From a virus, in IMG/VR virus record IMGVR_UViG_3300006790_000075, positions 1-30,302 of that record: a stretch of DNA of 30,302 nt; one strand, 5' to 3'. The notes under the pieces were generated by a model, which did no database searches, had not been told where the DNA came from, and worked only from the letters and a program-made list of their open reading frames with translations. Position 1 is the stretch's first letter. Each line of letters begins with the position of its first letter. Positions 25,582 through 29,285 of the stretch are shown piece by piece. Both the position numbers and the translations under genes were made by a program.

Positions 25582-26346
25582 CTAGTCGTCTTGGTCCCCG
25601 TCCCAGCAGAGGCAGGACGTTTCGATGACCTCGGGGAACAGCTTACCCTGGGCTTCGTCAGCCTTGAGGAACGCTTCCCAACTGAACGAGCGGCCTAGCC
25701 CGGCGACAGTGTCGAGTTCGGCGTTGCGCTCCATGTCGATGGCGCGCTGTGCAAGCTCGGGGTAGCGTCGCTTCAGGTCGAGGATCTCGTTCTTCTTCGA
25801 GCCGGGGCAGAAGAAGCAGGCGGACTTGCCAGGGTTAGGCAGCCCGGCGCGTTCGAGCGCGAGCAGGCACTCCTCCCGTTCCCACATCCAGTCGATGAGT
25901 GGGTATTCGTAGCGATACTTCTCGTCTTCGGGGATCTGTGCTCGCCGTCGTTCTCCGATGTCGATGCCCAGATACTTCGTGACCTTCTCGCCTGCTGCCC
26001 AGACATCCTTGGCAGGCTGGTAGTTGTTGGCCCAGACCTCTTGCGGCTGCTTCTTATACTTGTGGCTGCACGACTTGAAGCCGTAGGCCAGGGACGGGAG
26101 CATCTTCTTGTAGAGGCAGTTGTGCTCCAGGTTCCGGTAGGTCTTCTGAGACGCACGGACTCGGGTGATCTCGGGGAAGCCATGCTTCTTGAGCCACCTG
26201 TCCATGATGTCCACGAACTGGTAGGTGTGCGGCTTCTCGCCGCCCGTGTCTGCGAACAGGATGGCGTCGCACTTCATGCCACGCTCCTGCATCCCGACGA
26301 GGAGGGCCGCGCTGTTCACGCCGCCGCCGAAGGAGACGATGATCAT
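25582..26346 (-). CDS. PAPS reductase-like PP-loop enzyme
   Basis: This 254-residue protein of the phosphoadenosine-phosphosulfate reductase / adenine nucleotide alpha-hydrolase family has an N-terminal PP-loop (MIIVSFGGGVNSAALL, about 3-16) and the FADTGGEKPHTY block. YGFKSCSHKYK follows, with a C-terminal cysteine set (CFFCPG at 177-181 and CLCW at 245-248, plus Cys77 and Cys93) that may bind metal or an iron-sulfur cluster. Phage members probably act on nucleotides or nucleic acid rather than in sulfur assimilation. It overlaps the helicase-loader stop in an ATGA, so it belongs to the replication operon. No DndA/B/D/E partners are visible, and its substrate is unknown. Confidence 0.75.
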   Translation of the reverse strand: MIIVSFGGGVNSAALLVGMQERGMKCDAILFADTGGEKPHTYQFVDIMDRWLKKHGFPEITRVRASQKTYRNLEHNCLYKKMLPSLAYGFKSCSHKYKKQPQEVWANNYQPAKDVWAAGEKVTKYLGIDIGERRRAQIPEDEKYRYEYPLIDWMWEREECLLALERAGLPNPGKSACFFCPGSKKNEILDLKRRYPELAQRAIDMERNAELDTVAGLGRSFSWEAFLKADEAQGKLFPEVIETSCLCWDGDQDD

Positions 26347-27155
26347 TTCCGCTGGTCCTCCCAGTAGAAACCCAGCATCTGCCCGCCCTCTCTCAATCGT
26401 GAGACGAGCGCGTCTCCCAAGTATGAGACGATGTCGTCCTTGCTCATGTTCGAGATCAGGATGGTCGGTCGCACCTCGCGGTAGCGCCGGTCGAGCAGGG
26501 CGAACAGGCTGTCGGTAGCGTGCTGGCTGTCCTTGTGCCTACCCACCTCGTCGATCACCAGCAGGCTGGGGCCGATGTAATCTGCGAGCACGTCGATCTC
26601 CCGCTCTTCAGCGTCGGCGTTGTAGGTGTTGCGTAGCCGTGCCAGGAAATCGTTAGCCGTTACGTAGCGTGCGGTGTGGTCACGCTTGAGGATGATCTCG
26701 TTGACGATGGCGCAGGCGGCGTAGGTCTTGCCGGTGCCGGGGTTGCCGACGAAGATCATGTTCTTGCCACGTTCGAGCGCGATGTCGAACCCTTCGACGT
26801 AGGCTTTGAGCTTCTGGCCTACGCCCTCCATGCCTTCGTGGTCGTCGCGCCACTCTTGCAGATGGGCAGATCGGTAACGGGGAGGCACGCCAGCAGCCGC
26901 CAGCATCAGGTCGTGTAGCCGGTGCTCGACGTGCGGATCATCGACAGAGCAGGTGTCGTAACGCTCCCGAAGTTGCGCCTCCTCCTCCTCGATCTCGGTG
27001 TTGCACTCCGGGCACTTCGTCCAGAACGCCTGGATGCGGGGATGCCGGTGAGCCATGAGCGAGGACTCATAGGTTCCGTGCTTCTCGCACTCCTTGGTAG
27101 CGTCCTCGACCTCGCGCCATGCTTCGAGGTAGTGCGCGTTGTCACTCTCTTCCAT
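26343..27155 (-). CDS. DnaC-like replicative helicase loader
   Basis: This 270-residue AAA+ protein shows Walker A GNPGTGKT (137-144), Walker B LLVIDE (198-203), a sensor-1-like ISN (234-236) and SRLREGG (252-258) with likely arginine finger or sensor 2. The N-terminal region has a possible zinc ribbon (CEKHG near 23 and CPEC at 48-51). This domain order is that of DnaC/IstB-type loaders used by phages to place the replicative helicase. A strong AAGGAGGG site precedes the ATG. It is encoded downstream of the initiator and ATGA-coupled to the PP-loop enzyme. No phage helicase is seen in this window. Confidence 0.85.
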   Translation of the reverse strand: MEESDNAHYLEAWREVEDATKECEKHGTYESSLMAHRHPRIQAFWTKCPECNTEIEEEEAQLRERYDTCSVDDPHVEHRLHDLMLAAAGVPPRYRSAHLQEWRDDHEGMEGVGQKLKAYVEGFDIALERGKNMIFVGNPGTGKTYAACAIVNEIILKRDHTARYVTANDFLARLRNTYNADAEEREIDVLADYIGPSLLVIDEVGRHKDSQHATDSLFALLDRRYREVRPTILISNMSKDDIVSYLGDALVSRLREGGQMLGFYWEDQRK

Positions 27156-27232: not shown

Positions 27233-27964
27233 TTAGAAGTCAATCTCGCCCGCCTCAGAGATGTCACCCTTGTAGACCTTGCGGTTGTCCTTGTTCAGCC
27301 ACTCGGCCTTGACGCTCGCCCACCCCCGGTCGAGGCACGTCTCAAGGGCTTCTTGCAGCGTGATGCCCGCGAGCTTGGCCTGCTTGCGAAGCCCGTTCAA
27401 GACTCGGGTTGTGACGGTCGCCTTCTTCTTGCGGCGCATCGTCGTGAACTCCAGCCACACGTCGTCGGTCACGTCGTCCGGCTTCTCCGCCCACTTGGCA
27501 CTAGCTTTGCTCTTAGTACTACTAGTACTACTAGTACTATCCTGTACTGTACTAGAGGGGGGTGTGGGGGGGGTGGTTTCGGGTGTGACGTTACGGATAC
27601 CCTGGGTAGCGTTAGCCGTGGCGTTACGGTGACGCCATCTGCGGACACGTTCCGCAGCCTTGGCTTGGCTCTCGGTCTGCCGCTGCCGGTAGTCACCGAC
27701 ACGGTGGACGACCACGGTGTCGTCGTCGTAGGCCGTCACCATCTTCGCCTTCTCAAGCTCGACCAGAGCCTTCTGAGAAGACTGGATTCCCAGCCCTGAG
27801 ATCTCAGCGCAGACCCGGAAGTCTTCGTCCACCACGATCTCACCCTTGTCGTCCGTCTTCAGCAGCAGGCAGATGAACAGCCAGCGGGCCGGGATCGAGA
27901 TGTTGTCACCCCACAGGGGCGACGCAAGAAGCTCGTTGCCGAGCAACCTCGTTTGTCCTTTCAT
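27233..27964 (-). CDS. Replication initiator / replisome organiser
   Basis: The product is 243 residues from the ATG at 27964. A TTG at 28000 would add 12 residues but has no ribosome-binding site; the ATG has GGAAGG directly next to it. The N-terminal half reads as a winged-helix domain (PARWLFICLLLKTDDKGEIV, then GIQSSQKALVELEKAKMVTA). A Ser/Thr/Pro-rich linker follows (TTPPTPPSST, STSSTSST), then a C-terminal helical domain (VWLEFTTMRRKKKATVTTRV, then GWASVKAEWL) of the type found next to phage helicase loaders. The gene lies directly upstream of DnaC, as in lambda O-P-like modules. The linker is encoded by repeats that may be the origin. Confidence 0.7.
   Translation of the reverse strand: MKGQTRLLGNELLASPLWGDNISIPARWLFICLLLKTDDKGEIVVDEDFRVCAEISGLGIQSSQKALVELEKAKMVTAYDDDTVVVHRVGDYRQRQTESQAKAAERVRRWRHRNATANATQGIRNVTPETTPPTPPSSTVQDSTSSTSSTKSKASAKWAEKPDDVTDDVWLEFTTMRRKKKATVTTRVLNGLRKQAKLAGITLQEALETCLDRGWASVKAEWLNKDNRKVYKGDISEAGEIDF
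27515..27539. repeat. Iteron-like tandem repeat inside the initiator gene
   Basis: AGTACTACT is repeated nearly three times (27515-27523, 27524-27532, 27533-27539), followed by a similar GTACTGTACTA. It encodes the Ser/Thr linker on the minus strand. Together with G runs at 27557-27562 and 27566-27573, it forms a candidate origin of the lambda-ori type within the initiator gene. Confidence 0.5.
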
Positions 27965-28012
27965 CCTTCCACACGTAACGCGAACGGTTACCCGTGTCAA
28001 AGGAAAAGGGAA

Positions 28013-28154
28013 GCCGGAACCCCCGGGTCAAGGGGAAGGGAGGGCAGCGGCGCGTCTCGTCAGCGCGCCACGGTCAGGTAGGGGTTCCGGCCCCAAGTGT
28101 GCTATGTAAAAGGCAGCAGCGACTGGCAGGGAAAGGAAAGCGAAAGCCTGCCAG
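28013..28154. other. Purine-rich, hairpin-rich region upstream of the initiator (origin or regulatory candidate)
   Basis: The 234 bases between the initiator and the nuclease-like gene hold no convincing gene. GCCGGAACCCC (28013-28023) pairs with GGGGTTCCGGC (28081-28091), enclosing GGCGCG/CGCGCC (28049-28054 with 28064-28069). A second hairpin, CTGGCAGG/CCTGCCAG (28123-28130 with 28147-28154), has a 16-base loop that is almost all purine. Plus-strand purine tracts run from 27999 to 28146. No clear sigma-70 promoter was found. Confidence 0.4.
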
Positions 28155-28234
28155 CCGCCACCACACACGTCCGAAACGCTTACCCCTCTCAACTGGCTCG
28201 CGTCGGTGTTCTTGTCTACCATCACGTTCACGCC

Positions 28235-28802: not shown

Positions 28803-29005
28803 GGCATACAGTGCTCAAGTTTGTTGGTTAGTTTGAGTAGGGCTTCCGCTCTCTCCCTGTCCCTCACATCCTTCGACGACGTTCGGTTCCGGCATAAGTT
28901 GCAGAATCCATTGTAGTCGATGCCAGTGACGTGTGTGTCGTGCCCCTGCTCGCAGAACTGGGTGACGACTCGATAGAGTCTTGGCTTCGGCTGGCTCGAT
29001 CCCAT
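28742..29005 (-). CDS. Small zinc-ribbon protein
   Basis: This is an 87-residue protein. Cys18-x-x-x-His22 and Cys35-x-x-Cys38 in FCEQGHDTHVTGIDYNGFCN form a plausible zinc site of a kind common in small phage proteins, followed by a charged helical tail. It lies between the DnaA-like gene and the XRE gene. It overlaps the DnaA-like frame by 191 bases in a different frame, so one reading may be run-on. This reading has the better defined domain over the shared part. Confidence 0.55.
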   Translation of the reverse strand: MGSSQPKPRLYRVVTQFCEQGHDTHVTGIDYNGFCNLCRNRTSSKDVRDRERAEALLKLTNKLEHCMPWERRDILMQIRALKRGSTD

Positions 29006-29285
29006 TCGCTAGATCCTCCTCGATCTTGTCTATGGCAGAACGGTAGACCGGGTTGTCCCGCATCTCCTTGGCCCGCTTGAGCCAGTAGATGCAGGTCGTG
29101 TGGTCTTCCCTGTTCAAGTAGCAGGTAATGTCCTCCAAGCACATGGTCGTGTGCTTGCGGATCAGGAACGCCGCGAACATCCTCGGCACGCTGACTGCGC
29201 GGACTCGACTGAGTCCCCAGATAGCCTCGGGCGTGACGGAGAACGCATCAGCGACAGCAAGCAAGATGTGGGCAGCTTTATGCAT
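28815..29285 (-). CDS. Stand-alone DnaA domain IV-like protein
   Basis: This is a 156-residue protein. Residues 4-90 match the DnaA C-terminal DNA-binding domain: AHILLAVADAFSVTPEAIWG, a basic loop with RVRAVSVPRMFAAFLIRKHT, and the signature REDHTTCIYWLKRA (59-72), equivalent to GRDHTTV in DnaA. No AAA+ domain is present. It may bind DnaA boxes to recruit or block host DnaA, or act as a regulator. The region after about residue 95 overlaps the zinc-ribbon gene in another frame and may be non-conserved. The start overlaps the previous gene by eight bases. Confidence 0.75.
   Translation of the reverse strand: MHKAAHILLAVADAFSVTPEAIWGLSRVRAVSVPRMFAAFLIRKHTTMCLEDITCYLNREDHTTCIYWLKRAKEMRDNPVYRSAIDKIEEDLANGIEPAEAKTLSSRHPVLRAGARHTRHWHRLQWILQLMPEPNVVEGCEGQGESGSPTQTNQQT

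Follow-up and report, generated by a model that had tools for sequence, protein, structure and literature searches.

The replication origin of lambda and the Stx phages lies in the middle of gene O, inside the initiator gene itself. There, an AT-rich segment of low stability lies between the initiator repeats, 18-bp iterons in lambda, and the helicase-loader gene, which comes next. Iteron plasmids have an autoregulated Rep protein, direct repeats in the origin, and an inverted similar site at the promoter of its own gene. In the Stx phages, the number of origin repeats varies between relatives, which alters the length of the protein linker (PMC7466680). The published DnaA-trios pattern is three or more trinucleotides with a central A, a DnaA box, and a spacer of 0-16 bp (PMC8287927).

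The DNA studied here is a virus record from IMG/VR with a length of 30,302 bases; this whole stretch is called the window. The locus has the same features as the lambda and Stx origins: a candidate origin inside the initiator gene, putative initiator repeats with a weak AT-rich stretch between them and the adjoining helicase-loader gene, and a unit number that varies between relatives and changes the linker length. An O-like initiator with separate DNA-binding and C-terminal domains is also present (PHROG 678; two-domain model). However, the proposed unwinding element differs from that of lambda, being an array with TA at every third base that follows a paired C-tract in a gene rich in GC; the repeats are short and of the GTAACG type, whereas lambda has its long iterons, and the loader is DnaC-like and not lambda P-like. 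As in iteron plasmids, direct repeats in the candidate origin are accompanied by an inverted pair of a similar site upstream of the gene. In contrast to those plasmids, the repeats are inside coding sequence, the gene is a phage gene with an adjoining loader, and autoregulation is only proposed.

The segment is probably a replication origin inside the linker-coding part of the O-like initiator gene, in the style of lambda O. We consider it very likely that replication in this phage group originates here, from an origin whose kind is known and whose proposed trinucleotide unwinding element is unusual. A sequence-only reading had already suggested a lambda-like origin inside this gene. That idea of a candidate origin is strongly supported by comparative and physical evidence because of the O-like match, the adjoining loader, the stability minimum, the DNA-level constraint, and the conservation. 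Three details need correction: AGTACTACT is most likely part of an unwinding element and not a binding iteron, the quadruplex reading is weak, and the CGTTA repeats are specific to this phage.

Organization of the replication module

Three genes of the module are referred to throughout:

27233-27964, minus strand: O-like replication initiator, with a conserved ATG start and a TTG at 28000 as a possible alternative
26343-27155, minus strand: DnaC-like (AAA+) helicase loader (PHROG 50, E 3.7e-61; Pfam IstB_IS21, E 9e-20)
28815-29285, minus strand: DnaA domain IV protein (DnaA-box-binding helix-turn-helix) without the AAA+ part (Pfam Bac_DnaA_C, E 2.1e-13)

The initiator product matched PHROG 678, 'replication initiation O-like', with an E of 2.3e-18 over residues 137-241, which covers the C-terminal half only. 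An AlphaFold2 model from nine aligned sequences predicted a winged-helix-like N-terminal domain, a disordered linker, and a helical C-terminal domain. The N-terminal domain was well predicted, with strands and helices in winged-helix order, and the C-terminal domain had a mean pLDDT of 69. Linker residues 122-155 were predicted to be disordered (pLDDT < 50), in agreement with the earlier placement of all the elements in a low-complexity linker of the initiator.

The N-terminal domain was submitted to structural and sequence searches. Foldseek gave nothing at an E of 0.001 or below, and VIA-align gave Z < 8 with many unrelated winged helices tied and no distinct relative; the tied rows include entries titled initiator or Rep (4pt7, 4pql, and 5kbj). 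No relationship to lambda O was detectable in the searches made. A tblastn search of 50,697 phage records gave no match except one at E 0.9, which was discounted. Against genome_contigs, only a 14-residue match was obtained and discounted, and none was found against plasmids.

The DnaC-like loader gene lies directly downstream of the initiator gene, and this order was kept in the 10 loci examined. The stand-alone DnaA domain IV protein is encoded upstream in the replication module and has homologues in most of the relatives' loci. The cumulative GC skew reached its maximum near 26-27 kb, the same place as the coding-strand change. Rfam gave no match between 26300 and 28700. A phosphoadenosine phosphosulfate reductase-like gene (25582-26346, minus strand; PHROG 424, E 4.4e-36) adjoins the module.

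Collection of relatives

The relatives came from a loader search, which resulted in 12 loci, and from an initiator alignment search, which resulted in 15 contigs. The initiator gene was examined in ten of the 12 loader loci; the other two are L006, where 99 bases are available upstream, and L014, which begins within the loader. Grouped by inspection, the 15 contigs and the window make up six sequence groups plus the window. The initiator genes of thirteen contigs were measured, whereas L021 and L025 were read by eye and have the same C-tract and array. No relative was confirmed when the full initiator was used as a query against viral_contigs. Additionally, BLAST with a linker-like sequence gave no match, for which the low-complexity filter was possibly responsible.

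The trinucleotide array and duplex stability

27514-27540, unstranded: NTA trinucleotide array of nine units, proposed DNA unwinding element on the grounds of run uniqueness, stability, codon bias, and conservation

The nearly three copies of AGTACTACT noted in the sequence-only reading are real: TAGTACTAC is repeated 2.9 times with a period of 9 and a 100% match at 27514-27539, and the three occurrences of TAGTACTA in the window, against 0.08 expected, all fall in the array. However, the repeat is better described as nine consecutive NTA trinucleotides. No other NTA run of four or more units was found in the window, and the longest run across 200 dinucleotide shuffles of the window had five. 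The array was present in all thirteen relatives measured, with the longest run ranging from 6 to 11 units, whereas none of 17 initiators of named phage records checked had an NTA run of four or more. Our searches of open-access literature did not bring up a phage origin with this type of array.

Duplex stability was estimated from nearest-neighbour energies (unified set). The stability minimum of the whole 30.3 kb fell on the array at segment lengths of 24, 30, and 50 bases; at a length of 100 bases, 8 of 30,203 segments were weaker. In each of the 13 O-like relatives measured, the array also marked the minimum over the fetched locus (5-12 kb) at lengths of 30 and 50 bases. When the gene and 400 bp upstream were considered, the least stable 27-mer fell in the array region in all 14 genes. 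This minimum is the best single argument for the array as an unwinding element, and the array is most likely that and not a binding iteron.

The structured leader upstream of the gene

The strongest competing reading keeps an origin in the module and places the main melting or assembly site elsewhere, for example in a folded leader, with the array as an auxiliary element; we consider it unlikely. It draws on a leader (28008-28165, minus strand) with two tandem and very stable stem-loops, each followed by a T-run, at about -79 kcal/mol for 165 nt. Stem-loop leaders were found in L003, L083, L011, L012, L019, and L070, although the first stem was less clear in L011 and L012, and the arms of the second stem are different yet complementary in the relatives. 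Since strong stem-loops persist with different sequences, some function of this conserved leader is likely. However, the leader is GC-rich and very stable, which is the opposite of an unwinding element, and it is missing before the gene of L008, where the array is present.

Codon usage and constraint on the array

The array as an unwinding element must also be weighed against the protein that the same bases encode. On a purely protein-level account, the linker is a flexible tether rich in Pro/Thr and Ser/Thr, and its DNA repeats come from replication slippage and have no role in the DNA. The predicted disorder of the linker, the unit number that differs among relatives, and the common occurrence of Ser/Thr repeats with the same DNA words in other phage proteins all fit this account. 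However, the codon choice in the linker departs strongly from that in the rest of the gene. AGT makes up seven of the nine Ser codons in the linker of the window and none of the eight in the rest of the initiator gene, and its share was 10.7% of 568 Ser codons in 21 other ORFs of the window. In the linkers of 11 relatives, AGT ranged from four of eight to seven of seven Ser codons.

The pattern of variation points in the same direction. In the N-terminal domain, third-position identity at unchanged residues was only 0.40-0.71 between groups, so codons outside the array have drifted. The array keeps ANT codons, in which position 2 varies and changes the amino acid, whereas the A of position 1 and the wobble T are fixed; in L008, Ile replaces the Ser or Thr of the other genes, yet eleven NTA units are retained. 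Such variation is the opposite of protein-level selection. Moreover, duplex stability reaches its minimum at the array in every O-like locus measured, and other O-like phages have unrelated linkers, which makes a linker with no DNA role quite improbable. The evidence for a DNA-level constraint is strong but not conclusive because slippage could contribute to the homogeneity of the array.

The paired C-tract

27557-27573, unstranded: paired C-tract, read as C8 and C6 on the coding strand and as G6 and G8 on the plus strand; proposed GC-rich boundary between the repeats and the array

The G6 run occupies 27557-27562 and the G8 run 27566-27573, so the runs described in the sequence-only reading are real. 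The window avoids G/C runs of six or more: it has 3, where shuffles predict 11.6, and two of these make up the C-tract. Paired C-tracts lie upstream of the array in all 13 relatives measured, and a GC-rich boundary is favoured over a quadruplex. A quadruplex as the functional core, serving as a replication pause or initiation signal, is very improbable. A G3+N1-7 motif was detected in the window as well as in 11 of the 13 relatives, but in the window it fits 27557-27583 only if G8 is split. As many motifs as in the window occurred in 37 of 200 shuffles, so chance can account for the quadruplex as such. The three-tetrad motif is absent in L008 and L070, which represent two of seven groups and have G5 runs only.

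Repeats, proposed operator, and putative specificity cassette

27589-27628, minus strand: three direct GTAACG-type repeats, proposed initiator-binding iterons
27971-27997, unstranded: palindrome ACACGTAAC..GTTAC..GTGT immediately before the start codon, putative operator for autoregulation

The three CGTTA-type repeats of the sequence-only reading were confirmed as CGTTACG at 27589-27595, CGTTAGC at 27610-27616, and CGTTACG at 27622-27628, and none of 200 shuffles gave three SSTAACG on one strand within 45 nt. However, SSTAACG was found 29 times window-wide against 10.5 expected on both strands, and this general enrichment of the GTAACG word makes the repeats less remarkable than they seem. 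The longer word CGTAACG occurred 13 times in the window against 2.7 expected, also on both strands.

These repeats are specific to this phage, since its relatives have other repeats at that place or none visible. L003 carries a 12-base AACGCTACCGAA unit at the repeat position, and in the examined stretches of L008, neither repeats nor an operator were evident by eye. The sequence-only reading had regarded relatives that keep the linker and lose the repeats as evidence against an origin; the relatives keep the array and the C-tract, whereas the CGTTA repeats themselves are not kept, so that the objection holds in part for these repeats. The operator palindrome carries GTAAC half-sites that resemble the linker repeats, and by inspection, related palindromes lie at the same place in most relative groups, most clearly in L070 and L019.

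Pairwise identities were compared segment by segment. Between L011 and L012, identity was 0.99 in the leader, fell to 0.68 in the operator, 0.75 in the N-terminal domain, and 0.35 in the repeats, and was 0.90 in the C-tract with the array and 0.98 in both the C-terminal domain and the loader. The control pair, L012 and L013, had 0.99-1.00 throughout. L003 and L083 were alike in the operator, N-terminal domain, and C-terminal domain (0.88-0.94), whereas their leader had 0.55 and their loader 0.72. For L019 and L070, the leader (1.00) and loader (0.92) agreed, and the operator, N-terminal domain, repeats, and C-terminal domain were all different. The C-terminal domain of the initiator is of two types, joined at the linker. 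In these comparisons, the operator, N-terminal domain, and repeats change together or stay alike together, as would follow from a single domain that recognizes both sites; this cassette argument rests on few pairs, and L019/L070 and L003/L083 have other boundaries.

Operator and repeats also shared more k-mers within than between phages, with p of 0.002 for 5-mers, 0.019 for 6-mers, and 0.056 for 7-mers. The test used seven groups and all permutations, and it is the version to trust over an earlier run on nine phages, three of which came from one group. Without L070, the result was weaker, with p of 0.017, 0.14, and 0.37, respectively.

Proposed mechanism of initiation

Computation established the sequence elements and how they are conserved, the DNA-level constraint acting on the array, its unique duplex instability, the order of the genes, and the joint difference of operator, N-terminal domain, and repeats in one close pair; from these results we infer a possible order of events. 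The winged-helix domain of the initiator would recognize the GTAACG-type repeats and also the operator in front of the initiator gene, where a similar site forms an inverted pair. The initiator-repeat complex would melt the adjoining NTA array, with the C-tract acting as a putative GC-rich boundary between the binding sites and the melting site. The C-terminal domain may then pass the opened strands to the DnaC-like loader, which would place the host replicative helicase, and replication would start at the linker segment. The locus offers a precise candidate origin for an uncultured phage group, in which a variable specificity part (operator, N-terminal domain, and repeats) is separate from a constant melting part.

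Comparison with DnaA-trios

As in the DnaA-trio system, one strand of the array is a run of central-A trinucleotides, and a GC-rich spacer and proposed binding sites adjoin it. Its nine NTA units (complement NAT), and the 6-11 units of the 13 relatives, compare with the three or more trinucleotides of that system. However, the trios of the array are a mixture of 3'-CAT-5' and 3'-GAT-5' and not mostly GAT, and the initiator is winged-helix-like, not DnaA. The DnaA box (TTATCCACA/TTGTCCACA, up to 2 mismatches) had three matches in 27400-28100, none adjoining the array, and so the array is not a member of the DnaA-trio system.

By analogy, the array could work like DnaA-trios. If it were read in this way, it would link phage and chromosomal origin opening, and one DNA stretch would be selected as origin and protein linker at once. 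A wider proposal is that the NTA array is a sequence-specific single-strand element, read in threes by an AAA+ protein, which recurs in the unrelated phage initiators of L046, L047/L059, and L131; the cassette would confer specificity, and the array would be the constant, exchangeable part. We regard this proposal as tentative and rather doubtful. The phage DnaC-like loader or the host DnaA would be candidates for the AAA+ protein.

Arrays in other phage initiators

Two word scans detected initiators or initiator-like genes in 15 of 47 and 17 of 50 stretches. The families were that of the window (12 and 6 stretches), L046, L047/L059, L131, and a helix-turn-helix group of ten loci (L091, L092, L095, L098, L102, L106, L109, L110, L112, and L130). 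PHROG supported L046 (E 1.8e-41), L047 (E 6.5e-6), and L131 (E 2.2e-21) as replication proteins, whereas the helix-turn-helix group was called initiator from layout only, and three of its members, when scanned, gave one single weak PHROG match, to a DNA-binding protein. The remaining 30-odd stretches of each scan were mostly Ser/Thr-rich proteins or intergenic DNA, as judged without a tool. L018, L022, L024, and L026 were set aside by eye as chance or unrelated.

A control word (Ser-Thr without TpA) gave at least 120 stretches, with three initiator-like by eye among the matches listed; it is an imperfect control, as its complement encodes Val-Glu repeats. Counted by family, the array scans gave five and the control matches listed gave three, so recurrence of the array across families is suggestive only.

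The arrays of L047 and L131 adjoin repeats within 1-2 mismatches of DnaA boxes, and the array region is the weakest duplex of the locus in L131 and L046. L131 encodes a DnaD-like initiator and has, at 1900-2400, eight 12-base repeats resembling TTGTCCAC with a 12-base spacing, followed by repeated TTTAAGTACTAGTACT units. From its sequence, this region is a clear candidate origin in another phage.

Two further arrangements were observed outside the O-like loci. In L092, L091, L098, L109, and L130, and with another sequence in L095 and L102, a palindrome follows the NTA array in an unrelated helix-turn-helix gene; its sequence varies between the subgroups, whereas its position is alike. In L017, C-tracts and a TAGTACTAG array lie with palindromes in noncoding DNA (1940-2060), close to genes of a phage that encodes an RNA polymerase, a primase/helicase, and a DNA polymerase of its own.
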